From Methylophilus rhizosphaerae (lineage in GTDB: Bacteria; Pseudomonadota; Gammaproteobacteria; Burkholderiales; Methylophilaceae), in NCBI RefSeq assembly GCF_900100975.1, contig NZ_FNFX01000001.1, positions 189,820 to 253,819 of the forward strand: a DNA stretch of 64,000 nucleotides, in the 5' to 3' direction. The notes under the pieces were generated by a model. The model did no database searches and was not told the origin of the DNA. It saw only the letters and a program-made list of their open reading frames with translations. The position numbers and the translations under genes are program-made. Positions 205 through 64,000 of the stretch are shown here, one piece after another (the stretch's first letter is position 1; each line of letters opens with the position of its first letter).

Positions 205-1590
205 ATGCGCCCACAAAACGAGAGTGCCCGTGCCCGGTTGAGTCAAATCCTGCGCGTAAGGGGATGGAGCTCAGCCTCCTCATTAGCCCAAACCCTTGGT
301 ATCAGCATTCCCACCCTGCACCGTATCCTGCAAGAACACGAAACCAACATTGTCCGCACAGGTGTGACCAAGTACGCACGCTATGCCTGGCGCAGGGCAC
401 TACGCGGCACCTACGACCCGATTCCCGTCTACGCCATTGATGCGCACGGACAAGGTCAAGCACTCGACTTTCTGCATCTGGTCGAACCGCAAGGCAGCGT
501 GTTTAATCTCGTGCCCTCTGCCTGGCCTATAGATCGCGAACACCTTTCCGGCGCATGGGAGGGACTTCCCTATCCGCTTTACGATATGCGCCCACAAGGT
601 TATCTGGGGCGAAAATTTGCCAGGGCCTTTTCTACAGACCTTGATGTGCCTACCGATCCGGAAGCATGGTCAGATGACCATATCGTGTACGCACTCAGCC
701 GCCGTGGCAACGATACGCCAGGTAATCTAATTATCGGCTACCATGCCTATCAACAGTGGCTGGAGAATATCGCCCATCCTGAAACCATCATTCCTCCCGA
801 TCAATTACCCAACCACTATGCAGCACTGGCCACTGAGGCCATTTCACTTTCCGGCAGCGGATCCAGTGCTGGTGGCGAATTTCCAAAATTTACTGCCCAG
901 CGAGCATTGCCAGGCAGCACAACACCGCATGTCATTGTGAAGTTTTCTGGTGCAGATGCCTCCCTTCCTGTCCAGCGCTGGGCAGACTTGCTCGTATGTG
1001 AACATCTGGCACTGGAAACCCTGAAAAAAAACAGACACCTCAAAGCAGCGAGCAGCCGCATCATTCAATCTGCAGGCAGGACTTTTCTTGAAGTCGAGCG
1101 ATTTGACCGCTGTGGCACACATGGCCGCCTTCCACTAATCTCGTTAACCAGCCTGGATGCTGTTTTTTCCGGCAAAGGCAGCGGTGACTGGCCCACACTG
1201 GTACAGCCCCTGATAAAAAACGGACTATTGCCAGAGACCTTGTTGCTGGAAGTCGAAACCCTATGGTGGTTTGGTCGCCTGATCGCAAACAATGATATGC
1301 ATCCGGGCAACCTGTCATTCCAACTCATAATGGGCGAACCCCTGCACCTCTCCCCTGCCTACGACATGCTCCCCATGCTCTATGCCCCTCTGTCAGGAGG
1401 AGAAATACCACCACGGCAATTTGCCCCAACACTTCCCCATCCACACCAGACCCAAGCCTGGGAAGCTGCTTATCCTATCGCCCTGGATTTCTGGCAGTCC
1501 GCTGCCAGTGATGACCGCATTAGTCCGTCATTCAGAAAAATCTGCCAGGAAAACCTGCAACAACTTCATCGGCTCTCAACACGCCCCTAA
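205..1590 (+). CDS. yjjJ: HipA-family serine/threonine kinase-like protein with N-terminal HTH (YjjJ/HipH type)
   Basis: This 461-residue protein has the layout of the E. coli YjjJ (HipH) subgroup of HipA toxins. A helix-turn-helix-like segment lies at about residues 8-45, followed by a HipA-type kinase fold. Visible motifs are a Ser/Gly-rich nucleotide loop near 217-229 (GSGSSAGGEFPK), the catalytic D-x-H-x-x-N at D364, H366 and N369, and a DFG-equivalent aspartate at D387. Unlike classical hipBA, there is no separate HipB antitoxin gene on either side; DNA binding is apparently built into the toxin chain. No Shine-Dalgarno precedes the ATG, and a perfect inverted repeat ends 6 bp upstream. 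The gene stands alone, with about 190 bp to the promoter of the next operon. Toxicity is inferred from the family only. Confidence 0.85.
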   Translation: MRPQNESARARLSQILRVRGWSSASSLAQTLGISIPTLHRILQEHETNIVRTGVTKYARYAWRRALRGTYDPIPVYAIDAHGQGQALDFLHLVEPQGSVFNLVPSAWPIDREHLSGAWEGLPYPLYDMRPQGYLGRKFARAFSTDLDVPTDPEAWSDDHIVYALSRRGNDTPGNLIIGYHAYQQWLENIAHPETIIPPDQLPNHYAALATEAISLSGSGSSAGGEFPKFTAQRALPGSTTPHVIVKFSGADASLPVQRWADLLVCEHLALETLKKNRHLKAASSRIIQSAGRTFLEVERFDRCGTHGRLPLISLTSLDAVFSGKGSGDWPTLVQPLIKNGLLPETLLLEVETLWWFGRLIANNDMHPGNLSFQLIMGEPLHLSPAYDMLPMLYAPLSGGEIPPRQFAPTLPHPHQTQAWEAAYPIALDFWQSAASDDRISPSFRKICQENLQQLHRLSTRP

Positions 1591-34937: not shown

Positions 34938-34964
34938 TAAAGAATTTGAAAAAACTGCCGATAG
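34938..34964 (+). promoter_or_regulatory. Sigma-28 (FliA) type promoter for flgK-flgL
   Basis: TAAAGAAT, an 11-bp spacer, then GCCGATAG. Against TAAAGTTT-N11-GCCGATAA this is 6 of 8 and 7 of 8 with exact spacing. It lies 70 bp before the flgK ATG, in the 100-bp gap after flgJ, so the junction genes are late genes separate from the hook-basal-body operon. Confidence 0.82.
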
Positions 34965-35034: not shown

Positions 35035-36711
35035 ATGTCCAGTATATTCAATATCGGCAAAAGTGCATTAACGGCCGCCCAGATCGGTATTACCACCACA
35101 GGGCACAATATCGCTAACGCCTCGACGCCAGGCTACAACCGCCAGGTTATTGTGCAATCCGCCGCACAGGCCCAGAACTGGGGCTATGGCTATATCGGCC
35201 AGGGTACGAATGTCTCCAGCATTACGCGTGTATATAACGATACGCTGGCCAAACAGATGCTGAGCGCCACCTCCTCCAGCGGCGCAAGCGGCGCCTATTA
35301 CAGCAATATTTCAGACATTAACAGCCTGCTCTCTGATTCCAGCGCCGGACTCGGCCCGGTAATGACCCAGTTCTTCAGCGCCGTCAGTGCGGCGGCAGCC
35401 AACCCCGGCGATATCGCTACCCGCCAGACTGTCCTGTCATCGGCAAACTCGCTGCTGGGCCGGTTTGGTGCGGTGAATGACCGCCTGAATGATATACGCC
35501 AAAGCCTGAATACCCAGATTTCCACCAGCGTAGACAACATTAACAGCTATGCCACGCAGATTTCACAACTCAATGCGGCAATTGACAAGGCCCGCAGTAC
35601 ATCCGGTAACCCGCCGAATGACCTGATGGATCAGCGTGACCTGCTGGTCTCCCAGTTGAGCCAGGAAATCAAGACCACCGTCGTACAGCAGGACGATGGC
35701 AGCTATAACATCCTGATAGGCAATGGCATGCCGCTCGTCGTTGGCAAGGAAACTTACCAGCTTACCACCCAGCCCAACCCGACAGATCCGGGCCGACTGG
35801 AAGTTGCTTACGGCAACAATAACCCGAAAATCATCACGGGATCCACACTGGCAGGGGGCACACTGGGCGGCATTATAGCGTTCAGGAGTGAAACACTGGA
35901 TCCGGTACAGAACCAGATCGGCCAGCTGGCGATCACGCTGGCCACGCAGTTTAACGAACAGCAGCAGAATGGCTATGACCTGAATGGCGATGATGGCGTT
36001 GCCATGTTTAATATTCCGCAACCCGTGGTCACCAGCAGCGCCTACAATACGGACCCATCCAAACAGGCAACGGCAACATTCGTCGCCGGACAGTCCTCCC
36101 AGCTGACCAGCAGCGATTACACGCTGAAATATACCAACGGCCAGTACAACATCATCCGCAACAGTGATAAAACCGTCACACCAGTGACTACCTTGCCTAT
36201 CACGGTGGATGGCATTGAGTTCAATGTGAATACCTCCACGCCGGCGGAAGGTGATGAATACCTGATACGCCCTACCCAGGCAGCTGCCGGCAAGATTACA
36301 CTGGCCCTTGATAACCCGGAAAAACTGGCACTGGCCGAGCGCATTGATAAAGATGGCAACCTGGTCGCATTCAAGGGTCCTGGCGACAACGGCAACGGCT
36401 TGAAACTCGCCCAGCTACAGGATAATGGTGGCGTGCGCCTTATGGGTAGCAACAGCACGCGCTCCTATACCCAGGCATTTGCACTGATGGTGAGTGCCGT
36501 GGGCACAAAAACCAATGAAATGATGATTACCAGCAAGGCAGATGCTGCTTCGCTGGAAGCCGCCAACAGCGCCATGCAATCAGAGTCTGGCGTGAATCTG
36601 GACGAAGAAGCTGCCAATTTGCTGCGCTACCAGCAGGCCTACCAGGCTGCCGGTAAGATGATGCAGATTGCCAGCCAGATGTTTGACGTACTGATGCAAC
36701 TGGGCCAATAG
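35035..36711 (+). CDS. flgK: Hook-filament junction protein FlgK (HAP1)
   Basis: The 558-residue protein has the axial N-terminus IFNIGKSALTAAQIGITTTGHNIANASTPGYNRQ. The C-terminal segment VNLDEEAANLLRYQQAYQAAGKMMQIASQMFDVLMQL is diagnostic of FlgK. It forms the first junction ring on the hook and replaces the FlgD cap. It is secreted with FlgN as chaperone. It is the first gene after the sigma-28 promoter. Confidence 0.97.
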   Translation: MSSIFNIGKSALTAAQIGITTTGHNIANASTPGYNRQVIVQSAAQAQNWGYGYIGQGTNVSSITRVYNDTLAKQMLSATSSSGASGAYYSNISDINSLLSDSSAGLGPVMTQFFSAVSAAAANPGDIATRQTVLSSANSLLGRFGAVNDRLNDIRQSLNTQISTSVDNINSYATQISQLNAAIDKARSTSGNPPNDLMDQRDLLVSQLSQEIKTTVVQQDDGSYNILIGNGMPLVVGKETYQLTTQPNPTDPGRLEVAYGNNNPKIITGSTLAGGTLGGIIAFRSETLDPVQNQIGQLAITLATQFNEQQQNGYDLNGDDGVAMFNIPQPVVTSSAYNTDPSKQATATFVAGQSSQLTSSDYTLKYTNGQYNIIRNSDKTVTPVTTLPITVDGIEFNVNTSTPAEGDEYLIRPTQAAAGKITLALDNPEKLALAERIDKDGNLVAFKGPGDNGNGLKLAQLQDNGGVRLMGSNSTRSYTQAFALMVSAVGTKTNEMMITSKADAASLEAANSAMQSESGVNLDEEAANLLRYQQAYQAAGKMMQIASQMFDVLMQLGQ

Positions 36712-51639: not shown

Positions 51640-52131
51640 TTATGCCCCTGCCATCGCCAAACGGTTAAAAGCGCTGGCCTGGCCTTGCTGTGCAACCAGC
51701 GTATCCATGGCAGCATTGGCCTGCGCGGCTTTAGTTACCCCGTTCTTTTCCAGGGTTTCCCAGGCACTTTTCAGGCTCATCAGCAATTGCTGGATTTCAT
51801 GCACTTTTTTCGCATCCATATGCAGGCTGGCCTGCATCAGGCTACGGGTCATGTATTGGTACAATTGGTCCAGGCTACCTGCAATCTGGCCACCGGCCTG
51901 CTTGTTCAGGCTGGCGCGCAAGCCATTGTCAATAATGGAGACAGCTTTGGTCAGGCACTCTCCCTTTTTCGTGATGTCGCCTTGCTGCATGGCCTGCTGC
52001 GCATGGATGCAGGCAGTGATAGCGCCTTCATACAACATCACGGTTAATTTTAAAGGGCTGGCATCGACCATGCCGGTTTCCAGGCTAACATTGGCGTAGG
52101 CATGAATGCCTGACTGTTTGTTTCCGAACAT
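51640..52131 (-). CDS. fliS: Flagellin export chaperone FliS
   Basis: The 163-residue four-helix protein has the FliS signature YANVSLETGMVDASPLKLTVMLYEGAITAC and YQYMTRSLMQASLHMDAKKVHEIQQLLMSLKSAWETL. It is somewhat longer than the usual 125-140 residues because of an Ala/Gln-rich C-terminal tail. It binds the FliC C-terminus before export. It lies between fliD and fliT. Confidence 0.93.
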   Translation of the reverse strand: MFGNKQSGIHAYANVSLETGMVDASPLKLTVMLYEGAITACIHAQQAMQQGDITKKGECLTKAVSIIDNGLRASLNKQAGGQIAGSLDQLYQYMTRSLMQASLHMDAKKVHEIQQLLMSLKSAWETLEKNGVTKAAQANAAMDTLVAQQGQASAFNRLAMAGA

Positions 52132-52167: not shown

Positions 52168-53865
52168 TTAGCTTTTATTCAATGCCGCAATTTGCTGGCT
52201 GAGATAAGAACTGGTGCTTTGCATGCTGCTCAGCAAGGCATCCAGGTTGGCGTACTGCGTCCTGTAGCGCTGCTCAATAGCCGGCATTTTGGCGTTCAAA
52301 TCATCATATCTGTCTTGCAACCCCTTGATAGAGGTCTGGATACCATCGGTTTTCACTGTCAGTGATCCCACATCTGCTTGCAGCCAGCTATCGATCATGC
52401 TGCTGAGCTCGCCGGCGAGGCCCTGGCTGAATGTGACTGTGCCGCGGCTACCCGTGGCAGAGCCGTTAATCATGATTTTGAGGCCCTGGGCCGCGTTGTC
52501 TACGCCCCCTGTCAGGTTGGCACCACTGCCTATAGCCGCTACGCCATTAATGGTGCCGGCAACACTCTGTGTCCCGTCAGCCAGCTGGCTGACATTGATG
52601 GCGTAGGTGCCAGACAATGTTTTGCTGGAGCTGCCCATATAAGTGACCTGCGGGTCGGAAGTGGTGGCAGACGGCGCAAACAGTTTGGCCACATCAGATA
52701 AGTTGGTACTTAATGCTTTTGCCAGTTTGTCGCTATCCAGGCTTAATGAACCATCGACATAGGAGGATTTGATGCCAATATCCGCCAGGGTACGGAACGT
52801 GGTTGCCGTGGGTGAGGTTTTTGCCAGCATGCCCTTCAGTTTGACCATGATGTCGCGTGCGGTTGAATCGCCCAACAAAGGACCGTTGGAGGAAGAACCG
52901 CCTTCAACAAACTTGGTCAGGTCGTTCAAGGTGGAATTTAACTTGTTGTAAGCATCAACAAAACTTTGTACTGAATCTTGTATCGCGCTGGTATCCGTTG
53001 CCACCTCCAGTGTGGCATTGGTACTGGTCACGGATTTCAGGTTCAGCGTCACTCCCTGGATCACATCACTCAGCGTATTGCTGGATTTGCTCACGGCCAG
53101 ACCATCCACGGTCAGCAAGGCATTTTGTGCCGCGACCAGTTGTGTCATGTTCTTGCCGCTACCTGCTGTTGCCAGCGGATCATACGCCAGCGCAGACAAA
53201 CCCGTGCCATCGGTGCTGTTACCATCGGCATCAGTCACATCAATTTTCATGCTGTTGACTTCGCCAGTCTCTTTTGAAGTGATGACCAGGCGGTTACCGC
53301 TGCCGTCATTCACAATCGACGCACTCACAGACGCATTTTGTGCGTTGATGGCATCACGAATACCGGACAGCGTATTGTTGCTGCTGTCTATCGTGATAGT
53401 GATCGCCTGTTTATCCAGGTTGCTGGTAAAACTGGCGGCGGTACCATTCGTGGTATCCGCTGCGTTATAAGTACCAAAAGAGATCTTCAGGGTACCAGTG
53501 CCTATGATATCGCTGGTATTGGCAAAAGCAGCTGTCGCCAGTTTTTGCGAAGCTGCCAGCTGGTTGACGGAAATGTTGTAGCTACCACTGGTCGCCGTAC
53601 CGTCTGCGGTGGCCACAATACTGCTGCCGTCAGACAAGGTAGCGGTTTGTGTCGTGAACTTGGCTGCGGTTGACAGCTTGTCTAGTGCGGCCTGGAAAGT
53701 GCTTAAACCGCTTTTTAGAGTGCCATACGCGGAGAGTTTGGTATTGTAAGAGCTGATCTGCGTTTGCAGTTGCGTCAGGGGTTGCTTTTCAATCGTCATC
53801 AACCCGGTGACAATCGAGTCAATTGCCAGGCCGGACGCGCCGGTTGTTGGGGTAATTGTCGCCAT
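52168..53865 (-). CDS. fliD: Flagellar filament cap protein FliD (HAP2)
   Basis: The 565-residue cap protein has the N-terminal SGLAIDSIVTGLMTIEKQPLTQLQTQISSYNTKLSAYGTLKSGL helix and the C-terminal helix pattern LQDRYDDLNAKMPAIEQRYRTQYANLDALLSSMQSTSSYLSQQIAALN. The Ser/Thr-rich central part folds as the cap plate. It helps flagellin fold at the filament tip. It lies after flaG in the leftward filament operon. Confidence 0.96.
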   Translation of the reverse strand: MATITPTTGASGLAIDSIVTGLMTIEKQPLTQLQTQISSYNTKLSAYGTLKSGLSTFQAALDKLSTAAKFTTQTATLSDGSSIVATADGTATSGSYNISVNQLAASQKLATAAFANTSDIIGTGTLKISFGTYNAADTTNGTAASFTSNLDKQAITITIDSSNNTLSGIRDAINAQNASVSASIVNDGSGNRLVITSKETGEVNSMKIDVTDADGNSTDGTGLSALAYDPLATAGSGKNMTQLVAAQNALLTVDGLAVSKSSNTLSDVIQGVTLNLKSVTSTNATLEVATDTSAIQDSVQSFVDAYNKLNSTLNDLTKFVEGGSSSNGPLLGDSTARDIMVKLKGMLAKTSPTATTFRTLADIGIKSSYVDGSLSLDSDKLAKALSTNLSDVAKLFAPSATTSDPQVTYMGSSSKTLSGTYAINVSQLADGTQSVAGTINGVAAIGSGANLTGGVDNAAQGLKIMINGSATGSRGTVTFSQGLAGELSSMIDSWLQADVGSLTVKTDGIQTSIKGLQDRYDDLNAKMPAIEQRYRTQYANLDALLSSMQSTSSYLSQQIAALNKS

Positions 53866-53898: not shown

Positions 53899-54243
53899 CT
53901 AGGCTTTCTGCCTGATCACCAGACCACGCAGATTATCCAGGGTTTTGCTAATTGCCAGCACTTCCTCATTGGGAATCTGGCGCAAGACCTGCTGTGTTTC
54001 AGTATCTACCACTTTCACTACAATACGATCAGTGTCGTCATCAATTGAAAACTGTATGGTTTGCAATGCAGGGGCCACATAATCATTCAGTTTCTGTACG
54101 GCGCCAGTCAATGTTGCCTTATCCATCACATCTGCAGGTTTCTGCTCACCACTACTGGCATACTTCACCAGTTTGAGGCTATTCACAGCTGCCAGCCCTT
54201 GGGGTGGTCTTTGTCCGCCCATGCCATCTATAGATTGAGTCAT
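53899..54243 (-). CDS. flaG: FlaG family protein
   Basis: The 114-residue protein has the FlaG C-terminal pattern LNDYVAPALQTIQFSIDDDTDRIVVKVVDTETQQVLRQIPNEEVLAISKTLDNLRGLVIRQKA. FlaG proteins affect filament length and are usually encoded between fliC and fliD, as here. A strong hairpin separates it from fliC, so it may be expressed by read-through at a lower level. Confidence 0.93.
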   Translation of the reverse strand: MTQSIDGMGGQRPPQGLAAVNSLKLVKYASSGEQKPADVMDKATLTGAVQKLNDYVAPALQTIQFSIDDDTDRIVVKVVDTETQQVLRQIPNEEVLAISKTLDNLRGLVIRQKA

Positions 54244-54319: not shown

Positions 54320-55120
54320 TTATCTCAACAGTGTCAATACTTGGTTAGGCGTCTGGTTCGCTTGTGCCAGCATCGCTGTACCTGCTTGTTGCAGAATTTG
54401 TGCACGTGTCATGTTGGCAGTTTCTGCGGCAAAGTCAGCATCCATGATACGGGACTTGGCAGCAGACATGTTTTCAGATGAAATCTGCAGGCTGCTGATC
54501 ACAGACTCGAAACGGTTCTGGTAAGCACCCAGCTGCGCACGGCTGGTGTTCACAGCTTTCAACGCTTCATCAATCGCAGACAGTGCAGCTGAAGCAGCTG
54601 AAGCTGAAGCAATCCCGCCTGAGATGGTACCTGCAGCCGCAACAGAGCTTACGTCGATGGTATCAGCGGCATCGGCACCTACCTGGAATGATGTGGTAGA
54701 GGAACCAAATGTCGCAGAACCGTTAAACTTGGTCGCAGTGCTCAAACGTGTCAATTCCTGGTTCAACTGGCTGAATTCTGCATCCAGGTTGGCACGGTCA
54801 CCGCTACCATAGGAGCCGTTGGCAGCCTGAACAGCCAGTTCACGCATACGTTGTAAGGCATCAGTACCTTTAGCCAAACCACCTTCAGCTGTTTGCAGGA
54901 AAGAAATCGCGTCATTGGAGTTGCGGATCGCTACGCCCATACCGCGAATCTGTGAATCCAGGCTGGTAGCAATCGCCAGGCCTGCAGCGTCATCCTTGGA
55001 GTTGTTGATACGCAGACCAGAGGACAAGCGTTGAATAGAGGTATTCAGGCTTGACTGTGAAGTAGTCAGGTTACGTTGTGCATTTAAAGATGCAATGTTG
55101 GTGTTAATTACTGCAGCCAT
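54320..55120 (-). CDS. fliC: Flagellin FliC (short form)
   Basis: The 266-residue filament subunit has conserved D0/D1 halves: AAVINTNIASLNAQRNLTTSQSSLNTSIQRLSSGLRINNSKDDAAGLAIA at the start and SRIMDADFAAETANMTRAQILQQAGTAMLAQANQTPNQVLTLLR at the end. The surface-exposed D2/D3 domains are nearly absent: only about 45 residues, rich in Ala, Ser and Thr, join the two halves. Ser/Thr there are candidate O-glycosylation sites. A sigma-28-type promoter lies about 120 bp upstream and gives an untranslated leader of about 113 nt. Phosphonate genes are divergent on the other side. Confidence 0.97.
   Translation of the reverse strand: MAAVINTNIASLNAQRNLTTSQSSLNTSIQRLSSGLRINNSKDDAAGLAIATSLDSQIRGMGVAIRNSNDAISFLQTAEGGLAKGTDALQRMRELAVQAANGSYGSGDRANLDAEFSQLNQELTRLSTATKFNGSATFGSSTTSFQVGADAADTIDVSSVAAAGTISGGIASASAASAALSAIDEALKAVNTSRAQLGAYQNRFESVISSLQISSENMSAAKSRIMDADFAAETANMTRAQILQQAGTAMLAQANQTPNQVLTLLR
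54587..54610. repeat. Short in-frame tandem repeat within fliC
   Basis: Two perfect copies of the 9-mer AGCTGAAGC (54587-54595 and 54596-54604) plus a 6-bp partial copy (54605-54610). On the coding strand they give an Ala/Ser run (ASASAASAAL) at the junction of the two D1 halves, where other flagellins carry D2/D3. Unit changes would keep the frame in multiples of three. Confidence 0.75.
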
Positions 55121-55616
55121 GTTATGTCTCCTTTAGAGTCGTATATCCAGTTAAGTGTCAAATCGTCGTATTACTGTTACCTCAACGCTGATTCGCTTGC
55201 TACTTACCAAATTTTGCTAATTCATCGTTGTTGTTTGTGTTATCGACCAGTCCGGAAATTTCTTTAATACTGTATGTAGAATTTCTTTTCCATCGGTCGA
55301 ACACTTGTTTCTGTTAACGACTGCTCTGCGGAGTTCTTTAATCCTTTTATCAATATTCGTTCATCATTCAACCCGATCTATTTTATATAAAGTAGCCTGG
55401 GCTTCATTGCCAGAGATAACTGTCAATTACCTTTTAATTCCGGTGACACGCCCCATCCTGCCTAGCAAAAAATAAAGCCGCCCAATTACTCAGGATTTGG
55501 AGGCTGTTTAAGGCGCTTTTCTGCCAATCACTTCACTCCCTTTCACACCATAATTCTGATAAATGTGCGCTGGTCTTGAAGGCTGGTGTCAACAAGACAT
55601 ATATAAGGAGTGTGGC
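55121..55616. other. Divergent regulatory region between fliC and the phosphonate operon (496 bp, no gene)
   Basis: The left half carries the fliC ribosome site, a leader of about 113 nt and the sigma-28 promoter (55240-55266). The right half holds an imperfect hairpin (about 55476-55505) and a possible -10 CATAAT at 55549-55554 for the rightward operon, without a convincing -35. An AAGGAG ribosome site precedes the first phosphonate gene at 55605-55610. I see no open frame, tRNA or CRISPR here. Confidence 0.6.
55240..55266 (-). promoter_or_regulatory. Sigma-28 (FliA) type promoter for fliC
   Basis: On the minus strand TAAAGAAA, an 11-bp spacer, then GTCGATAA. Against TAAAGTTT-N11-GCCGATAA this is 6 of 8 and 7 of 8 with exact spacing. 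Predicted transcription start is near 55233, 113 nt before the fliC ATG. Confidence 0.82.
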
Positions 55617-56015
55617 ATGGCATCAGTGTATGTAGGAATGACAGTGGATATTCTGCATCATGGGCATATCAATATTATTGAGCAGGCCAGGAAATATGGC
55701 GACGTAACCATTGGCTTGTTATCCGATGCCGCTGTGTCAGATCACAAGCGTTTGCCCTACCTGACGTTTGAGCAGCGTAAACGCATTGTCGAGAATATTC
55801 GTGGTGTCGTGAATGTGGTGCCGCAGGAAGAATGGGATTACGCGCCTAACCTGCTGAAATACAAGCCCGATATCATGGTACACGGTGATGACTGGCTGGA
55901 TGGTCCGTTACTGCCTTACCGTGAGCGTGCACGTGCCGCGCTGGCCGAATATGGCGGTCACCTGATTGAGATTCCTTATACCCGTGGTGTCTCCTCCAAT
56001 GAAATGGTGGGGTAG
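55617..56015 (+). CDS. Nucleotidyltransferase, probable CTP:phosphonate cytidylyltransferase
   Basis: A 132-residue TagD/GT-like cytidylyltransferase with HHGH (H14-x-G16-H17) in VDILHHGHINIIEQARKYG, and the string KPDIMVHGDDW. The C-terminal YTRGVSSNEM corresponds to the RT-x-ISS loop. Start ATG 55617 has an AAGGAG site; the open frame to 55563 is not conserved. The next gene, PEP mutase, begins directly after its TAG. In several bacteria this domain is fused to PEP mutase and makes CMP-2-aminoethylphosphonate; here it is a separate chain. Confidence 0.82.
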   Translation: MASVYVGMTVDILHHGHINIIEQARKYGDVTIGLLSDAAVSDHKRLPYLTFEQRKRIVENIRGVVNVVPQEEWDYAPNLLKYKPDIMVHGDDWLDGPLLPYRERARAALAEYGGHLIEIPYTRGVSSNEMVG

Positions 56016-56915
56016 ATGCAGGCGTTGGGAACCACACCGGATATCCGCCGCCGCACCCTGAAAAGGTTGCTGGCGGCCAAACCTATTTCCAGGTTTATCG
56101 AAGCCCACAACCCGATTTCCGCCCTGATTGCCGAACACGTCTCCGCACAACGCAATGGCAAAACCTGCCAGTTTGACGGGTTCTGGTCCAGCTCGCTGAC
56201 GGATTCTACCGCACGCGGCAAACCGGATATTGAAGCGGTGGAGATCAATAGCCGCTTATCCAATATCAATGACATTTTCGATGTCACCACCAAACCTCTG
56301 ATTATGGATGCGGATACCGGCGGCAAGCTGGAGCACTTTGAACTCAATGTGCGCAGCATGGAACGCCTGGGTATCTCCGCCACCATTATCGAAGACAAAA
56401 TCGGCCTGAAAAAGAATTCCCTGTTTGGCAATGAAGTGCCGCAATTACAGGATGATATCGAACCCTTCTGCGAAAAAATCATGGCAGGCCGTGCGGCACG
56501 GGTCAGCGATGACTTCATGGTGATTGCGCGTATCGAAAGCCTGATCCTGGAAAAAGGCATGGAAGATGCTGTCAAGCGTGCACAGGCTTATGTCGGTGCC
56601 GGCGTGGACGGCATCATGATCCACAGCCGCCAGAAATCCCCCGATGAAGTATTCGAGTTTGCCAACATCTTCAAATCCGAATTCCCCACCACACCACTGG
56701 TGTGCGTACCGACCAGTTATAACAAGGTCACTGAAGAAGAACTGGCTGCACGTGGCTTCAACCTGGTGATTTATGCCAATCATATGATGCGTGCAGCCTA
56801 TCCGGCCATGCAGCGCACCGCCATGGAAATCCTCAAGAACGGCAGGACCGCAGAAGTCGAGTCAGAATTGATGTCGATTAACGATGTGCTGGAACTGATT
56901 CCCGGAACTAAATAA
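56016..56915 (+). CDS. pepM: Phosphoenolpyruvate mutase (phosphonopyruvate-forming)
   Basis: Rearranges PEP to 3-phosphonopyruvate, forming the C-P bond that starts nearly all natural phosphonates. The 299-residue isocitrate-lyase-fold protein has the diagnostic EDK-x5-NS motif at 126-135 (EDKIGLKKNS). It also has the Mg site region LIMDADTGG and a gating-type IARIESLILEKGMEDAVKRAQAYVGAGVDGIMIHSR. The EDK-x5-NS motif separates it from methylisocitrate and oxaloacetate lyases. It is adjacent to the cytidylyltransferase (0 bp gap) and 14 bp before ppd. Confidence 0.95.
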   Translation: MQALGTTPDIRRRTLKRLLAAKPISRFIEAHNPISALIAEHVSAQRNGKTCQFDGFWSSSLTDSTARGKPDIEAVEINSRLSNINDIFDVTTKPLIMDADTGGKLEHFELNVRSMERLGISATIIEDKIGLKKNSLFGNEVPQLQDDIEPFCEKIMAGRAARVSDDFMVIARIESLILEKGMEDAVKRAQAYVGAGVDGIMIHSRQKSPDEVFEFANIFKSEFPTTPLVCVPTSYNKVTEEELAARGFNLVIYANHMMRAAYPAMQRTAMEILKNGRTAEVESELMSINDVLELIPGTK

Positions 56916-56929
56916 TTAGGAGCGCTATC

Positions 56930-58090
56930 ATGATTGAGGCTGGTGCATTTCTGGAAGCCCTGCAAAACGAAGGCGTGCAATTTTTTACCGGCGTGCCTGA
57001 TTCATTATTGAAAGAGCTGTGCGCCTGTTTTTCTGACCGGCTGTCTGAATCACATCATGTGATTGCGGCCAATGAAGGCGGCGCCACCGGCCTGGCCATG
57101 GGCCATTACCTGGCGACTGGCACGCCGGCGGTGGTGTATATGCAGAATTCCGGCCTGGGCAATGTGGTGAATCCAATTGCATCGCTGGCCGATCCGCAGA
57201 TTTATGGTATTCCCATGTTACTGGTGATTGGCTGGCGCGGTGAGACTCAATCAGATGGCAAACAGATCCACGACGAACCGCAACACGTCAAGCAAGGCCA
57301 AATCACGCTGGAACAACTGGATCTGCTTGGTATTCCGTTTGAAATTTTCCAGACCGATATCAACTGTGTCGTGACACAAATCCCCCGTTTGCTGGCAATT
57401 GCCAAACGCAGGTCGGGGCCGGTTGCCCTGGTGATACGCAAGCAGAGCTTTGCACCATACAAGGCGAAAACAAGCAGAAAATCAGCCCCGGCAAATGACA
57501 CTTTGCCCAGCCGGGAAGACATGCTGACCAATATCGTGCGCCTGCTTACAGATGAGGTGGCAGTCGTTGCGACCACTGGCATGGCTTCGCGTGAACTGTT
57601 TGAATTCCGGCATGCACAGAACAGTGGTCATGCCAGGGATTTTCTCACCGTCGGCGGTATGGGCCATGCCTCACAGATTGCCTGCGGCATCGCACTGGCA
57701 CAACCGGACAGGCAGGTAGTCTGCCTGGATGGCGACGGCGCCCTGCTTATGCACATGGGCAGCCTGACCCTGAATGCGCAACAGCGTAACCTGGTGCATA
57801 TCGTGTTTAACAACGGCGCGCATGATTCCGTTGGCGGCCAGCCAACCGTGGCTGCCCAATTGAACCTGTCCGATATTGCCAAAGCGGCCGGTTACCAATG
57901 GGTGATCCGCGTAAGTTCAGGCAGCCAGCTCAGCGAAGCCTTGCACTATGCGCTGAGCCTGGGCCAAAGCTGCTTTATCGAAGTACTGTGCCGCAAAGGT
58001 GCGCGTGCCGATCTTGGCCGCCCTACCCGCACGCCGGCACAAAACAAACAGGACTTCATGCAGTTCCTGGAAGAGGTTGAGTATGCCTGA
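56930..58090 (+). CDS. ppd: Phosphonopyruvate decarboxylase
   Basis: TPP-dependent enzyme turning phosphonopyruvate into phosphonoacetaldehyde, which pulls the unfavourable PEP mutase reaction forward. The 386-residue protein has the start FLEALQNEGVQFFTGVPDSLLKELC. The Glu-containing IAANEGGATGLAMGHYLATGTPAVVYMQNSGLGN follows, and the TPP/Mg motif is GDGALLMHMGSLTLNAQQRNLVHIVFNNGAHDSVGGQPT. An AGGAGC ribosome site precedes the ATG. The end overlaps the aminotransferase gene by 8 bp. Confidence 0.95.
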   Translation: MIEAGAFLEALQNEGVQFFTGVPDSLLKELCACFSDRLSESHHVIAANEGGATGLAMGHYLATGTPAVVYMQNSGLGNVVNPIASLADPQIYGIPMLLVIGWRGETQSDGKQIHDEPQHVKQGQITLEQLDLLGIPFEIFQTDINCVVTQIPRLLAIAKRRSGPVALVIRKQSFAPYKAKTSRKSAPANDTLPSREDMLTNIVRLLTDEVAVVATTGMASRELFEFRHAQNSGHARDFLTVGGMGHASQIACGIALAQPDRQVVCLDGDGALLMHMGSLTLNAQQRNLVHIVFNNGAHDSVGGQPTVAAQLNLSDIAKAAGYQWVIRVSSGSQLSEALHYALSLGQSCFIEVLCRKGARADLGRPTRTPAQNKQDFMQFLEEVEYA

Positions 58091-59075
58091 TCAGTCGCCC
58101 ACCCTGCTTGCACACATCACGCAACAGAATAGCGTCAAAGCCTTATTCACAGCTGGTCCTGCCAGCCTGCTGGAAGAAAACCTGCGTGGTCTGCGCCCCT
58201 GTTTTGGCCGTGGCGATGAAGATTACCAGCAGGTGGAACAGGCTGTGCTGGATGCCCTGAAACAGATGAGCGGCCATGCACAGATTGCACGCCTGCAAGG
58301 ATCTGCCAGCCTGGCGCTGGAAATTGCCTCGCTCAACTTTTTGTTTGGCAAAGTGCTGGTCATAGACAGCGGGTATTACGCACAACGCCTGGTGAGTTTT
58401 GCCGAAGCGGCACAGCGCCTGGGCCATGTCGGCTCAGTGATTGTCGCCAACTGGCAAGACCTTGCCAATATTGAAGGCAAGTTTGACTGGATTGTCGCCT
58501 GCTATACCGAAACCAGCATAGGCTTGAAACTGCCTATTCATGAATTACGCGCACTGGCTGATCGTGCTGGCGCACAGTTATTTCTGGATGCCACCGCTTC
58601 AATTGGCCTGGAATCAGCCCACGAACAGGCCGATGTGATTGCCTATAGTTCCTGCAAGGGACTGTTTGGCCTGACCGGCGCCGCCTTTATTGCCTTTAAC
58701 CAGTTACCGACACAAACCGTGGATGGTTTTTATCTGGACCTGCATACGCACCTGGAACGGCGCATGACCGGCCCTTACCATGCAATTGCTTCCTTATATG
58801 AAGTATTACCGCAGCATCACGATTTACGTGAAGCGGTGTTTACCAATAAAGCAATGATGCTGCAAAAATTTTCCGGCTTTGATACCCATCCAGCCAGCCA
58901 CCAGCCAGCGCTATGCACCTGGGTAGATGCCAGGATTGGTTCACATGACCCGCGTGCCGTGTTGTACGCACCGCGTGGTATCAGCCGTGGCAGTGTGGTT
59001 TGCCACCTGGGTGAAGCGCATTTGGGTAAAGCTGCGCGTGGCGAAATTTTAAACATGCTGGAGGTATTGGCATGA
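58083..59075 (+). CDS. 2-aminoethylphosphonate-type aminotransferase (PhnW-like, class V PLP)
   Basis: The 330-residue fold-type I PLP enzyme has the substrate loop ALFTAGPAS, GSASLALEIASLNFLFG, the Asp strand LFLDATASIGLE and the Schiff-base lysine K192 in SSCKGLFG. In this setting it should transaminate phosphonoacetaldehyde to 2-aminoethylphosphonate. It is a biosynthetic relative of PhnW, a little shorter. ATG 58083 overlaps ppd by 8 bp; the last bases overlap the next gene as ATGA. A related serine- or cysteine-type class V activity cannot be excluded. Confidence 0.83.
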   Translation: MPDQSPTLLAHITQQNSVKALFTAGPASLLEENLRGLRPCFGRGDEDYQQVEQAVLDALKQMSGHAQIARLQGSASLALEIASLNFLFGKVLVIDSGYYAQRLVSFAEAAQRLGHVGSVIVANWQDLANIEGKFDWIVACYTETSIGLKLPIHELRALADRAGAQLFLDATASIGLESAHEQADVIAYSSCKGLFGLTGAAFIAFNQLPTQTVDGFYLDLHTHLERRMTGPYHAIASLYEVLPQHHDLREAVFTNKAMMLQKFSGFDTHPASHQPALCTWVDARIGSHDPRAVLYAPRGISRGSVVCHLGEAHLGKAARGEILNMLEVLA

Positions 59076-59482
59076 GTACACAAAAACGCATCATGGTGGA
59101 TATGTCAGCCACGCTGATCCATCACGGCCATGTCCGCCTGTTAAAAGCGGCCAGACAACTAGGTCGAGTCATTGTGGCACTAACGACCGACGAAGAAATC
59201 CGCAGCAAAAAAGGCTATGAGCCTGAGCTGGATTATGCCGCCCGTACCGAAGTATTGTTAGCCATGCGCGACGTCGATGAAGTGGTGCCTAGCCCATGGC
59301 TGCTTGATGAAGCCTTTTTACAACAGCACCAGATTGATCTACTCGTCCACGGCCACGATAACAGCAACCCGGTTGCGGCTGAAAAATTACATATCCTGCC
59401 TCGCACAGAGGGCATCAGCAGCACGCAATTGCGTGCCCGTGTCCTGAAAGCCGTCAGCCAAAAAATGGAGGCGAACACATGA
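59072..59482 (+). CDS. Second TagD-like cytidylyltransferase
   Basis: The 136-residue nucleotidyltransferase has H17-x-G19-H20 in TLIHHGHVRLLKAARQLG and the C-terminal loop RTEGISSTQLRARV, the TagD/GCT-type CTP-binding signature. It differs clearly from the cytidylyltransferase at 55617, so the locus has two. One may load aminoethylphosphonate and the other a later, for example methylated, product, or a polyol phosphate. ATGA overlaps with both neighbours suggest tight co-translation. Confidence 0.85.
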   Translation: MSTQKRIMVDMSATLIHHGHVRLLKAARQLGRVIVALTTDEEIRSKKGYEPELDYAARTEVLLAMRDVDEVVPSPWLLDEAFLQQHQIDLLVHGHDNSNPVAAEKLHILPRTEGISSTQLRARVLKAVSQKMEANT

Positions 59483-60177
59483 GCAATTTATGGCAACAAA
59501 TCTGGGAAAAACGCACCCTGCAACCTCAGCACGCGATCACGCTGGACACATTGATCTCGCTGGATGGTTTTGATAGTGGTGCCGGCAAAATCAACCCTGC
59601 CGACTGGCAGGAGTACACCCGCCGCATCAGCGAAAAACTGGGATTAAAACCAGGTGACTCGGTATTTGAAGTCGGCTGCGGCGCTGGCGCTTTCCTGTTT
59701 GCACTACGCCAGCAATTTGCGCTTGAGGTCGGCGGCCTCGATTACACAGCCGGCCTGATTGAAGCAGCACAGCAAGCCATGCCGGACGGCGATTTCCATG
59801 TGCAGGCTGCGCAATCATTAGAAACTGAACCTGCTTATGATTTTGTGATTGCCAACAGTGTCTTCCATTATTTCGATGAAGTCATGGCGGCGCAGGTGCT
59901 GCAGGCCATGTGGAAAAAATCCCGGCATGGTATCGCCATCCTGGATATACCAAATGCTGCCACACGTGACGCCTGCGAACTTGCGCGCAGAGAGGCATTG
60001 ACGCAAGCCGAATATGAAGAGAAATATAAAGGCCTGCACCACACTTATTTCACTCCTGAATGGTTTACCCGGCAACTGCCTGAGCGCTCGCATCAAGTGT
60101 TCCAGAGTTGCGTGCCTAATTATGCACAAAGTGAGTTCCGCTTCAGTGTGATTTTTTCCAAACATTTGCATGGATAA
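59479..60177 (+). CDS. Class I SAM-dependent methyltransferase of the phosphonate locus
   Basis: The 232-residue protein has the SAM motif VFEVGCGAGAFL (E64-V65-G66-C67-G68) and the string FVIANSVFHYFDEVMAAQVLQAMW. It is coupled by ATGA to the second cytidylyltransferase and lies 3 to 9 bp before the phosphotransferase-like gene. The likely substrate is the amino group of aminoethylphosphonate or its CMP ester, giving an N-methylated form. That is inference from position; O-methylation of a sugar is the alternative. Confidence 0.8.
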   Translation: MSNLWQQIWEKRTLQPQHAITLDTLISLDGFDSGAGKINPADWQEYTRRISEKLGLKPGDSVFEVGCGAGAFLFALRQQFALEVGGLDYTAGLIEAAQQAMPDGDFHVQAAQSLETEPAYDFVIANSVFHYFDEVMAAQVLQAMWKKSRHGIAILDIPNAATRDACELARREALTQAEYEEKYKGLHHTYFTPEWFTRQLPERSHQVFQSCVPNYAQSEFRFSVIFSKHLHG

Positions 60178-60186
60178 CGCGTGATC

Positions 60187-61578
60187 ATGACTACTTCCGC
60201 TATCAATACTTTGCCTGCCATCACTTTCTTCTACACCGACAATTGCGAGCGCCAGGCACTGGCACCTATCGCAGACGAAGCGGCAAGCAGAGGCATCCCT
60301 ATTCAATGGAGCACGGATTCCAGGCAGTATGCCGAGATCGGCGTTTACTGCGAGCACGCGTGCAAGCCGAATGCCGGCTTTTCAATGATATTGCTGCACG
60401 ACCTGGCACAGCGCCATGATATCTGGCCGCACTTCTGGCACCATGAGCCCTGGCAGGCGTTTGACATGGGGATTGTGCCCGGCCCGGCCTGGGTAGACCG
60501 CTGGCAAACCCAGGCAGTCTATGCCCAGGCGCGTCCTAAATTAGGTTTATTTGACCTTGGATGGCCCAAGGCTGACCTGGTTTACCGTAATCAGAACGAA
60601 TTCAAACAGCAGGCACAGGCTTTGCGTGAGAAGCTGGGCCTGAAGCATGAGCGTTCAGTGCTGTATGCACCTTCCTGGGAAAACCACGGCAAGCAGGATG
60701 ATTTTGTTCAGGCACTGAAAGACCTGCCCGTGAACCTGTTGCTGAAGCAGGCGCCATGGTCAGAAAAATACCGCTGGGTACTCAACAATATTGATGAGAT
60801 GGATGCCTTGCATAGAGGCTGCGCTGACAACGTGTATGTGATTGACCGCGAAATCAGCATCATGTACTGCCTGGGCTTGGCCGATGTGATGGTGTCTGAC
60901 GAGTCCAGCGTGCTGACAGAAGCCTTGTTGCTGGATGTGCCTGGCGTGGCCGTGATTGACTGGGTCATTCCTGACACCAATCCGCCAAGACCTGCGTGCG
61001 TACCTTATGACTATGTCACTAAAACCACACGCGCCAACTTGCGCGACACCGTATTGAACGTGCTGGAAAACCCGCAGCAATACCAGGCTGAGATTGACGA
61101 AAACAAACAGCAGCAATTCGCCTACCTGGGTGAAAGTGCCAGGCGTATTGTTGATAATATGGTCGCCGCTTTGCAAGGCCAACCGCTACCTACACCGCCA
61201 CTCACTGCACAGGTGGAAATTGACCGTACGACTTACCTGCATGCGGAGAAACTTGCAGCTGAAGGCGATATGAAATTGTCGACACAAATTATGCTGGAGC
61301 TCATCAAGAAAGACAGCACTTGCTGGGAGCCATACAATGACCTGGGTACAGTGCTGGTAGGCCAAGGCCAATACGAGGATGCCGAATTACTGCTTGAAAA
61401 AGCAGTACATCTGGCGCAAGACAATCCGTCAATTCCTTTAAGCAACCTGACCGAGGTCTATTGCCTGCAGGAGAAAGCAGATAAAGCGCTGCAGACATTG
61501 GTCAAATTAAGCAAGCATGCGCCTAATGCAGCGGCTTCTATTCCACATATCCGCAAATGCATGGAAACGATGTTTTAG
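60187..61578 (+). CDS. TagB/TagF-like CDP-alcohol (phosphono)phosphotransferase with C-terminal TPR
   Basis: A 463-residue protein. Residues about 120-340 match the CDP-glycerol glycerophosphotransferase family used in teichoic acid synthesis, with VLYAPSWENHG near 158-168 and VSDESSVLTEALLLDVPGV from 236. Residues about 350-463 are TPR-type helices (DSTCWEPYNDLGTVLVGQGQYEDAELLLEKAVHLAQ). Such enzymes move an alcohol phosphate from a CDP carrier. In this operon the natural donor would be a CMP-phosphonate, and the TPR part may recognise a protein or glycan acceptor. ATG 60187 is chosen over GTG 60181; no clear ribosome site. Confidence 0.78.
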   Translation: MTTSAINTLPAITFFYTDNCERQALAPIADEAASRGIPIQWSTDSRQYAEIGVYCEHACKPNAGFSMILLHDLAQRHDIWPHFWHHEPWQAFDMGIVPGPAWVDRWQTQAVYAQARPKLGLFDLGWPKADLVYRNQNEFKQQAQALREKLGLKHERSVLYAPSWENHGKQDDFVQALKDLPVNLLLKQAPWSEKYRWVLNNIDEMDALHRGCADNVYVIDREISIMYCLGLADVMVSDESSVLTEALLLDVPGVAVIDWVIPDTNPPRPACVPYDYVTKTTRANLRDTVLNVLENPQQYQAEIDENKQQQFAYLGESARRIVDNMVAALQGQPLPTPPLTAQVEIDRTTYLHAEKLAAEGDMKLSTQIMLELIKKDSTCWEPYNDLGTVLVGQGQYEDAELLLEKAVHLAQDNPSIPLSNLTEVYCLQEKADKALQTLVKLSKHAPNAAASIPHIRKCMETMF

Positions 61579-61877: not shown

Positions 61878-64000
61878 TTAAGTAAACAACTGCCGTACCG
61901 GCAACCCCGCACGTGAAAACTCCGAGGTCAATCCATTCACATGCTGCTCCGGCAACCCCTGGATCAGGTTCTGCAAGCGGTTGAACACACTGATGAATGC
62001 CTGCAATTCATGATCCTGGTAGCTATAACCCAATTGCTCCAGCACTGCCAGTGATAATCCACCAATATCGGAGGGTGTTTGCGGATGCGGTTTGGCGCAA
62101 CCACGGATACGGTGCAATGTCAGGAACAGGCCCCGCAAGGCCACGAAAGACACCGGCAACGGAATGGCAAAGTCCCATTCCAGGTCAAAGAAGTTGCCCT
62201 GCCCTTGCGCATCCACAACAAAGTTGGTCGGGGTGGCATCAAAATATTGGGATGGCAGCAGTGTTGTCGCACCTGCGAATTCCGGCAATGTATGGCCACC
62301 TTTAGTCACATTCGCTTCCAGGGCTTTCACCCAGACAGAAGCCCAGGCAGTCAGGTCTTCTACGCGCCAGCCAGGACGGTTGACCAGTTGGGTCAATTTG
62401 TCCATCCACAACGTGCCACCGTGGTAAGGCGATGGTTCCCAATCGGCTTGCAGCAATTTGGCCGTTTCCCCGGTATTGCGGGTACGGGTCGACAAGGTAT
62501 TGTCGGCATGGACGAATTGGGTTTCCTTGCTGAACACTGCCTGGCGCTGGCAGCCGTAGTGTGCCGCCAGTACATCAGAGTGCTGTTTCCCGGCCTGCTG
62601 TGCCGGGTAAGCCACAAACATGAATGAGTTGGCCATATCTTCCACCAGGTGATTGCGTGCCAGCACTTGCCAGGCATTTTCCAGCGAGAAGGTCGGGTGA
62701 CGCGGTGACTGCCTGTCATGCACAACCGAGCCAGCCGCCAATGCGCCGACATCCCAGCCCGCTGCCTTATGCGCAGGATTAAAGCCTTCAGGATAAATCA
62801 CGGTCACCGGTGTTTTGTAATCGGGCAATGGCACATACAGTTCGGTGGTTGCAAAACCGGCACTGCGGATCAAGGCATCCAGCTCTACCCGGCCAAATGT
62901 GATCGGCGTGGTCGTGCTGTAGGAATCATTAATCCCATACATGGCCTGGCCCATGTGGTCTTCAGGCGCACCGCAGAAATACTTGAGGCCCAGCTGGTTT
63001 TCAATCGCCACAATCAGCATGCCGTCTTCCTTGAGGAAAGACTTGGCTTTTTGCAGCAAGGCCAGCAAAGGATTAGCTTCCTTGACATAGACCTGCGCAT
63101 ATTCAAGCACGCCGATCAGGGTGACGACATCGAATTTTTCATCGGTTTCATAAGACTGGATCAGGTCGCAGAACACGCTGACGTTCTGTAATTCAGCGCA
63201 GCGCTGACCAATGATACGCGCACGGTTAGGGCTGCCTTCCACGGCCACCACTTGTCCGCCCAGTTCCCCCAGGAAACGCGTCACTGCACCGCAACCGGCG
63301 CCCAGCTCCAATACTTTGCCGGAAGCAATTTTTTCCGAGAATGGGCGCAGCAGGTTGGCGCGCTGTGAAGTCAGGTGATAGTAGCTTGGCCAGTCAGTGG
63401 CTTTCGCTGAAAGCTCATCAGAAAACACGCTCCTGTCGCGTGACTGGCGGATGATGTCATACAGGCGCTGTTCGGCATTGCCGGCATCCTGGTAACCGAA
63501 TGCTTCGGCCTGGGCACGCTGGTAAAAATTGTCCTGCGGACGGTAGATATAGCCACCCACAGTTACCGCTTTTGTATTCTCTACAGCCGGTGTGGCAACC
63601 TCTGCATAATAAGCGGCACAAATCTGCTGTAACCTTTGTACTGCAGCTTCCGGCAAACCATGCTGGCGGGAGAACTCAATCACTTCAGTGACTTCCTGCT
63701 GGTGGGTGGTTTGCATCAGGGCATGCACATAAGCCGTCCAGTACTCTTCCGTTTGCGGCGCCAGGATCACGGCCTGTTCCAGTAATGGCAATGCCGCTTT
63801 GGCGGATTCCGGCAAAGAAATCAGCCCCAGCCCATAATAAGCCACGTGGTGTTTCGGGGAGATACTCAAAATCTCCTGGTACAACGCAGCGGCTGGTGCC
63901 AGTTCGCCCTGTTCCTGGTGTTTGATGGCCAATTGCAGCACTTCTTCAATCGACTGTTCCAGCGCCTGCTGACCAGCTGAATCCTGGTCGATAGCTAAAG
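61878..64000 (-). CDS. TPR-domain SAM-dependent methyltransferase (partial, 5' end outside window)
   Basis: A large leftward gene of at least 707 residues. A GTG at 63941 is a possible internal start, but the frame stays open to the window edge with TPR-like sequence, so the true start lies outside. TPR helices (LAIKHQEQGELAPAAALYQEILSISPKHHVAYYGLGL) come first. A class I methyltransferase domain follows with VLELGAGCGAVTRFLGELGGQVVAVEGSPNRA. The long C-terminal part of unknown function contains LEWDFAIPLPVSFVALRGLF. Proteins of this type occur in glycan and flagellar-modification islands. It converges on the phosphonate operon. Confidence 0.75.
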   Translation of the reverse strand, partial: LAIDQDSAGQQALEQSIEEVLQLAIKHQEQGELAPAAALYQEILSISPKHHVAYYGLGLISLPESAKAALPLLEQAVILAPQTEEYWTAYVHALMQTTHQQEVTEVIEFSRQHGLPEAAVQRLQQICAAYYAEVATPAVENTKAVTVGGYIYRPQDNFYQRAQAEAFGYQDAGNAEQRLYDIIRQSRDRSVFSDELSAKATDWPSYYHLTSQRANLLRPFSEKIASGKVLELGAGCGAVTRFLGELGGQVVAVEGSPNRARIIGQRCAELQNVSVFCDLIQSYETDEKFDVVTLIGVLEYAQVYVKEANPLLALLQKAKSFLKEDGMLIVAIENQLGLKYFCGAPEDHMGQAMYGINDSYSTTTPITFGRVELDALIRSAGFATTELYVPLPDYKTPVTVIYPEGFNPAHKAAGWDVGALAAGSVVHDRQSPRHPTFSLENAWQVLARNHLVEDMANSFMFVAYPAQQAGKQHSDVLAAHYGCQRQAVFSKETQFVHADNTLSTRTRNTGETAKLLQADWEPSPYHGGTLWMDKLTQLVNRPGWRVEDLTAWASVWVKALEANVTKGGHTLPEFAGATTLLPSQYFDATPTNFVVDAQGQGNFFDLEWDFAIPLPVSFVALRGLFLTLHRIRGCAKPHPQTPSDIGGLSLAVLEQLGYSYQDHELQAFISVFNRLQNLIQGLPEQHVNGLTSEFSRAGLPVRQLFT

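Follow-up and report, generated by a model that had tools for sequence, protein, structure and literature searches.

A seven-gene phosphonate operon beside the flagellin gene of Methylophilus rhizosphaerae is likely to serve flagellin phosphonoglycosylation

A 64,000-nucleotide stretch of the Methylophilus rhizosphaerae genome (contig NZ_FNFX01000001.1, positions 189,820 to 253,819; hereafter the window) carries a seven-gene operon for the synthesis, activation and transfer of a phosphonate, divergent from the flagellin gene fliC in a genome of 2.76 Mb. In our view the locus is likely to be an island for flagellin phosphonoglycosylation, in which 2-aminoethylphosphonate (AEP) or its N-methyl derivative, activated with cytidine triphosphate (CTP), is moved onto a flagellin sugar. 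Bit scores below are for matches to the named family models, and TPR denotes tetratricopeptide repeats.

54320..55120, minus strand: fliC, encoding flagellin (266 amino acids), the probable acceptor protein; PF00669 144.7 bits, PF00700 96.9 bits.
55617..56015, plus strand: CTP1, a PF01467 cytidylyltransferase; 57.6 bits, motifs HHGH and YTRGVSS, fused to PepM in relatives.
56016..56915, plus strand: PepM, phosphoenolpyruvate mutase; TIGR02320 419.2 bits (cut-off 319.55), motif EDK-x5-NS as EDKIGLKKNS.
56930..58090, plus strand: Ppd, phosphonopyruvate decarboxylase; TIGR03297 481.5 bits (cut-off 312.5).
58083..59075, plus strand: PhnW-like class V aminotransferase, putative AEP transaminase; TIGR03301 67.7 bits (cut-off 360.8).
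59072..59482, plus strand: CTP2, a stand-alone PF01467 cytidylyltransferase, putatively for AEP; 54.6 bits, motifs HHGH and RTEGISS.
59479..60177, plus strand: class I S-adenosylmethionine-dependent methyltransferase, putatively for N-methylation of AEP; PF13649 46.8 bits.
60181..61578, plus strand: TagB/TagF-like phospho(no)transferase with C-terminal TPR repeats; PF04464 (Glyphos_transf) 31 bits (cut-off 22.1), PF14559 TPR 30.6 bits.

The seven same-strand open reading frames (ORFs) at 55617-61578 are tightly packed, with intergenic gaps of 0, 14, -8, -4, -4 and 3 bp, and 496 bp separate the operon start (55617, plus strand) from the divergent fliC start (55120, minus strand). The original prediction, made from this sequence alone, of seven coupled genes with an EDK-x5-NS PEP mutase about 0.5 kb from fliC is thus confirmed, as are its two cytidylyltransferases, its methyltransferase and its TagB/TagF-like transferase, each of which finds a family match. 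It had not mentioned the terminal TPR repeats of the transferase, nor the convergent 2503-residue protein with TPR and GT41 domains that follows the operon. The full biosynthetic route that it proposed stands for PepM and Ppd, which exceed their cut-offs; the aminotransferase is PhnW-like rather than a called PhnW, aligning with the PhnW structure 7e7g at an E value of 3.8e-13 with the lysines of both in register. Comparison of all seven genes with their orthologues in genome G003 gave nonsynonymous divergence (dN) of 0.03-0.08 and synonymous divergence (dS) of 0.8-1.5, except in the methyltransferase, where dS is saturated, and we therefore conclude that the operon genes are maintained. CTP1 and PepM form a single ORF of 432-457 residues in 10 other PepM-bearing Methylophilus genomes and three Methylotenera loci; in the window copy (55617-56915) a stop codon stands at the junction with an ATG directly after it, which may be a natural split or a sequencing error.

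The families present suggest a sequence of reactions. PepM would convert phosphoenolpyruvate to phosphonopyruvate, Ppd would decarboxylate this to phosphonoacetaldehyde, and the PhnW-like aminotransferase would yield AEP. The presence of a called PhnW in the same place in two other genomes, G565 and G099, supports AEP as the product of the aminotransferase. A cytidylyltransferase, most likely CTP2, would then use CTP to form CMP-AEP (CMP, cytidine monophosphate). AEP as the substrate of CTP2 is suggested by G099, where the called PhnW (379.8 bits) is joined to a stretch with 66% identity to CTP2. The PDB, too, contains a fusion of a nucleotidyltransferase and an aminotransferase (6pd1). CTP1 carries the motif YT.G.SS in six of seven compared loci (unmatched in L084, the G099 locus) and CTP2 carries RTEG.SS in all five read, and because of this difference the two enzymes probably have different substrates. 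By analogy with CD0243 of Clostridioides difficile, the methyltransferase probably acts on the amino nitrogen of AEP. In the cytoplasm, the giant TPR-GT41 protein would add sugars to flagellin serine or threonine residues; the TagF-like transferase, guided by its own TPR repeats, would pass the phosphonate from CMP to the flagellin sugar before export. The families, the operon, its linkage to fliC and its conservation are read directly from the genomes; from them we infer AEP as product, its N-methylation, a sugar as acceptor and flagellin as target.

Linkage of pepM to fliC in relatives had been set beforehand as one test of the prediction, and the linkage is present in all 11 PepM-bearing Methylophilus genomes and recurs in other families. 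PepM was found in 11 of 22 Methylophilus genomes and in 15 of 187 genomes of the family, the remainder being three Methylotenera (L052-L054) and G099. In each of the 11 Methylophilus genomes the operon diverges from fliC and the seven domains are alike. The locus is present in the laboratory strain Methylophilus methylotrophus. Methylotenera shows a different gene order, with the cassette upstream of fliC; the fliC strand carries a TPR-bearing gene, the cassette and, as a gene of its own, the counterpart of the giant protein's methyltransferase region, and GT41 is present in the one TPR-bearing gene scanned (L052). PepM lies 7-8 kb from fliC in two of these three genomes and about 29 kb away, with flagellin downstream on the same contig, in the third. 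G099, a Methylophilaceae genome that is 48% complete, combines CTP-PepM and the CTP2-PhnW fusion (L084:13467-17412) with a diverged decarboxylase (184.3 bits, under the cut-off), and no flagellin was found in it.

Ten flagellin or FlgL-type loci were read among the 11 PepM-negative Methylophilus genomes; the other genome, G007, has none. GT41 presence was assessed in G015 and G011, where fliC in each case has a TPR-GT41 gene at most 4 kb away, and in G021 by BLAST, which returned TPR-bearing homologues. Since TPR-GT41 genes stand near fliC without PepM in G015 and G011, the cassette for the phosphonate may have joined an existing locus for flagellin glycosylation. The protein near the fliC copies of G015 has 3017 amino acids and a TPR-GT41-GT61 architecture. 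Two Methylophilus genomes without PepM, G015 among them, contain three fliC copies each (L066:2617-19529 and L065:13-17132), 73-75% identical to that of the window.

The linkage extends beyond the family. A Dechloromonas metagenome-assembled genome holds the same cassette, then a giant methyltransferase/GT2 gene, then FliC-FlaG-FliD-FliS homologues (33-43% identity), with about 10 kb between PepM and FliC. In a sample of 399 genomes from the order, PepM was detected at an E value of 1e-60 or better in 15 and above the cut-off in 14; these 15 are three Methylophilus and 12 others, nine of which carry flagellin-domain genes, within 15 kb of PepM in two (G565 and G574, each from another family). 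The supply genes of G565 encode PepM fused to a MobA-like domain, a decarboxylase, a PhnW (362.0 bits, cut-off 360.8) and a second nucleotidyltransferase that scores far under the cut-offs of its models; what it has in common with the window is the methyltransferase (49%) and the TagF domain (63%), the latter forming the start of a 2061-residue protein, followed by flagellin and fliD. The G574 locus (L104:2567-19824) begins with flagellin, DegT, a weakly matched methyltransferase, GT2, CTP-PepM and the decarboxylase, continues with a PsrA-type iron dehydrogenase (531.3 bits, cut-off 423.7), a PF04464 transferase (162.1 bits) and another GT2, and ends with TPR-GT41 on the opposite strand and a second flagellin gene. 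This gene content leads us to predict hydroxyethylphosphonate as what is apparently the product of G574.

Taking together the 12 PepM lineages that carry flagellin-domain genes, four are linked within 15 kb compared with 0.2 expected, a crude P of about 3e-5 that assumes uniform placement; with the family of the window removed, three of 11 are linked (P about 6e-4, equally crude). The search that brought Dechloromonas and Methyloglobulus into this set was not the one that gave the other ten lineages. Hook-protein-type genes are among the flagellin-domain genes counted and make the expected number higher, and linkage may have gone unseen in G351, where PepM lies about 5 kb from a contig end, and in Methyloglobulus, where the cassette is at a contig end. 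The statistic covers lineages with flagellin-domain genes and leaves out G099, three order-sample PepM genomes without flagellin and six named genomes without flagellin.

A profile of the TagF-like transferase of the operon matched the TagF-like Cps3D (8qoy, E value 4.5e-8) as well as TPR chains of O-GlcNAc transferase (OGT; GlcNAc, N-acetylglucosamine). Its structural model has a mean predicted local distance difference test score of 63, with a poor catalytic half, and its 40 best matches in the fold search consist almost entirely of proteins with TPRs or other helical repeats. A TagF-core model found copies in four of 399 genomes of the order (G000, G009, G013 and G565), all of which have PepM and a nearby flagellin, in two of 369 of the class (G000 and G680) and in one of 398 of the phylum (G000); the window genome is included in the class and phylum counts, and up to five candidates were scored per genome. 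The core therewith co-occurs with a PepM match in five of five genomes and with flagellin in four of five, three of the five belonging to one genus. The TPR repeats of the transferase could bind flagellin itself, and on that basis it might place the phosphonate straight on serine or threonine without an intervening sugar. We regard such direct transfer as improbable: a TPR-GT41 gene adjoins the operon, and the available portions of two reports place phospho-linked groups on the flagellin sugar in both C. difficile and Pseudomonas aeruginosa (PMC10714395, PMC11833859).

61832..61861: terminator-like hairpin between the convergent genes, with a 13-pair stem and a T tail on the minus strand.
61878..64000, minus strand: C-terminal part of the 2503-residue TPR/GT41/GT2/methyltransferase(-kinase-like) protein, which runs on beyond the window as far as a position equivalent to 69389 (L063:11698-19209:-).

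This protein, convergent with the operon, combines many TPRs, GT41 (362.4 bits in four stretches, probably two copies), a GT2-like domain and, ahead of a stretch that matched no family, a methyltransferase. Cytoplasmic O-GlcNAc transferases that act on proteins belong to GT41, and it is therefore plausible that a flagellin O-glycosyltransferase flanks the operon. Sequence searches of its end against solved structures returned mainly methyltransferases and nothing convincing for the last third. In a Foldseek search, the methyltransferase-kinase WbdD, an O-antigen chain terminator, ranked sixth at low template-modelling scores (0.26/0.32), and a kinase-like end is at most suggested by the model. 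The scan that gave the intervening hairpin yielded 10 sites in the region compared with 7.9 expected. Eight of the 20 ORFs past the giant gene were scanned and include BrkB, NorB, beta-propellers, MoxR/VWA and a pyrroloquinoline quinone (PQQ)-dehydrogenase.

By content, the operon appears to belong to the phosphonyl tailoring (Pnt) clusters, although its transaminase step scores under the PhnW cut-off. As described in the available part of Rice 2019 (PMC6697681), Pnt clusters share with the operon and its relatives a PepM-PF01467 fusion and a second nucleotidyltransferase and have an AEP route, which is predicted for the operon; the window has a PEP mutase with EDK-x5-NS, a nucleotidyltransferase adjacent to PepM (fused in relatives) and, for the AEP branch, a Ppd above its cut-off beside the aminotransferase at 67.7 against 360.8 bits. 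In contrast, the window transferase has TPR repeats and the operon's neighbor is flagellin, while the text of PMC6697681 contains no word beginning with 'flagell'. The same article notes that antibiotic pathways, e.g., Fom1, also have PepM-cytidylyltransferase fusions. We nevertheless think it highly improbable that the operon yields a free phosphonate natural product with no flagellar role, given that the seven operon genes include no exporter or resistance gene, the last one encodes a polymer-type transferase and the linkage to fliC is conserved.

Flagellin-modifying clusters provide the second comparison, and here too we draw on the portions of the sources that were available. The type A cluster of C. 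difficile (cd0240-cd0244) similarly contains a nucleotidyltransferase, a methyltransferase and a TagF-like transferase (PMC10714395), the last of which, CD0244, is required to extend the flagellin GlcNAc; transfer of phosphothreonine is the hypothesis of its authors, and a TagF-like protein is the proposed transferase of a phospho-amino acid to the flagellin sugar (PMC10714395, PMC11833859). It differs in that N-methylthreonine phosphate is the main group, that its nucleotidyltransferase is likened to sugar/phosphocholine enzymes and that it has the phosphatase-like CD0241; no phosphoserine-phosphatase-like gene of the CD0241/PA1089 type had a family match among the seven operon genes, the only genes that this search covered. 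The claim that the window holds the phosphonate counterpart of type A consequently stands by analogy, and it falls short on the CD0241-type gene and on the glycosyltransferase family, which is another one here; the operon would work like the type A system without being that system. The b-type cluster of P. aeruginosa PAO1 (pa1088-pa1091) comprises four genes, one encoding a protein that joins a glycosyltransferase to a TagF-like transferase (PMC11833859), and differs by attaching dimethylthreonine phosphate to a deoxyhexose; neither phosphonate nor AEP occurs as a word in the text of that article. The giant neighbor, a TPR-GT41 gene at the flagellin locus, resembles Caulobacter FlmG, which has a TPR domain that binds flagellin and a GT-B domain (PMC7591256). 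FlmG differs in adding pseudaminic acid, whereas the 2503-residue protein joins four GT41 stretches to GT2-like and methyltransferase domains.

The original prediction knew of no phosphonate-modified flagellin. This has to be corrected: a 2022 report (PMC8861647) describes AEP attached to the GlcNAc of FliC in C. difficile and, in its available part, gives C. difficile as negative in a pepM survey and the source of AEP there as not known. The window differs in that synthesis of the carbon-phosphorus bond is encoded beside fliC. Phosphonates on surface glycoproteins of marine bacteria have been postulated, partly from gene context (PMC8931226), and flagellin glycans bearing phosphonate moieties are mentioned in the available part of a 2025 review. 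Among the matches listed (openly licensed literature, titles and abstract starts), none was recognized as treating a pepM-fliC locus or island, which does not prove absence in print.

The flagellar genes continue beyond fliC.

51640..52131, minus strand: fliS-like candidate, from position and size; the same site beside fliD is occupied in relatives.
52168..53865, minus strand: fliD, filament cap; PF07195 186.1 bits, PF02465 96.6 bits.
53899..54243, minus strand: flaG-like candidate, from its position between fliC and fliD, kept in relatives.
55240..55266, minus strand: sigma-28-like fliC promoter with 0 mismatches to TAAAG-N14-GYCGATAA, in a block conserved in 11 aligned genomes.

The scan used the sigma-28 consensus TAAAG-N14-GYCGATAA and found seven sites in the window compared with 1.55 expected. 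Besides the perfect fliC site there is a second with one mismatch, both on the minus strand, and the aligned fliC-operon intergenic region shows no clear operon promoter. Flagellar control of the operon was considered and set aside: the perfect site serves fliC, and co-regulation with fliC is unsupported. Elsewhere in the window, a one-mismatch site (34938-34964) lies immediately upstream of an ORF at 35035. Ten proteins at 205-22934 were scanned for families; a HipA_C protein (205-1590, plus strand) lies ahead of the flagellar genes, and a plus-strand polysaccharide cluster (about 3-23 kb, to 22934) encodes a NeuB-type synthase, epimerases, an ATP-binding cassette transporter, an ATP-grasp/GNAT protein and a glycosyltransferase.

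Several observations weigh against flagellin phosphonoglycosylation. Between 55121 and 55616, no sigma-28-like site with two or fewer mismatches faces the operon, and neither did a sigma-70 scan give one. The aminotransferase scores far under the TIGR03301 equivalog cut-off for PhnW. The flagellin-linked TagF protein of G565 has no TPR match, which weakens TPR as a mark of flagellin targeting. Of the nine order-sample genomes outside the family with both PepM and flagellin-domain genes, seven are unlinked (six with separate contigs, one with more than 1 Mb between them), and no flagellin was found in the genomes of six of 11 named-genome PepM-relative loci (L057-L062), genomes of unstated completeness, several of these loci having only part of the cassette. 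The remaining points favor a rival in which the phosphonate is made for the lipopolysaccharide (LPS) O-antigen or an exopolysaccharide and adjacency to fliC reflects a shared surface-structure region. The Methyloglobulus cassette follows Wzm/Wzt-type export genes, with flagellin-domain genes on another contig; the TagF core of G680 (51%, in a 373-residue protein) adjoins Wzx-like and GMP_PMI genes in a genome where no flagellin was found and where two partial PepM matches on other contigs (285-286 bits) fall under the cut-off; the NeuB-type cluster of the window is another possible acceptor pathway; and a weak resemblance to WbdD is seen at the end of the giant protein. We judge this rival unlikely: the operon is flanked by flagellar genes on one side, none of the eight scanned ORFs among the 20 past the giant gene is an LPS gene, the giant protein carries a GT41 domain, and flagellin linkage is seen again in several families. 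Given cassettes in flagellin-less genomes and after Wzm/Wzt-type genes, the cassette is a general surface-tailoring module by its genomic distribution, of which the versions that include a TagF transferase mostly accompany flagellin.

Taken with the conserved fliC linkage, its recurrence in other families and the TPR-GT41 gene alongside, the proposal that the operon feeds flagellar modification gains partial support, with a predicted acceptor, methyl position and product. We give roughly even odds to the broader view that there is a dedicated class of flagellin phosphonoglycosylation islands assembled more than once, with AEP or N-methyl-AEP in Methylophilus, Methylotenera and Dechloromonas, an unrelated supply joined to the same transferase in G565, and hydroxyethylphosphonate in G574. 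For this methanol-eating bacterium, the genes point to a flagellum that is probably decorated with phosphonate. A methylotroph that has pepM, the transferase and flagellin side by side would allow direct tests of the acceptor, of the enzymes and of how motility, grazing or phage attack is affected.

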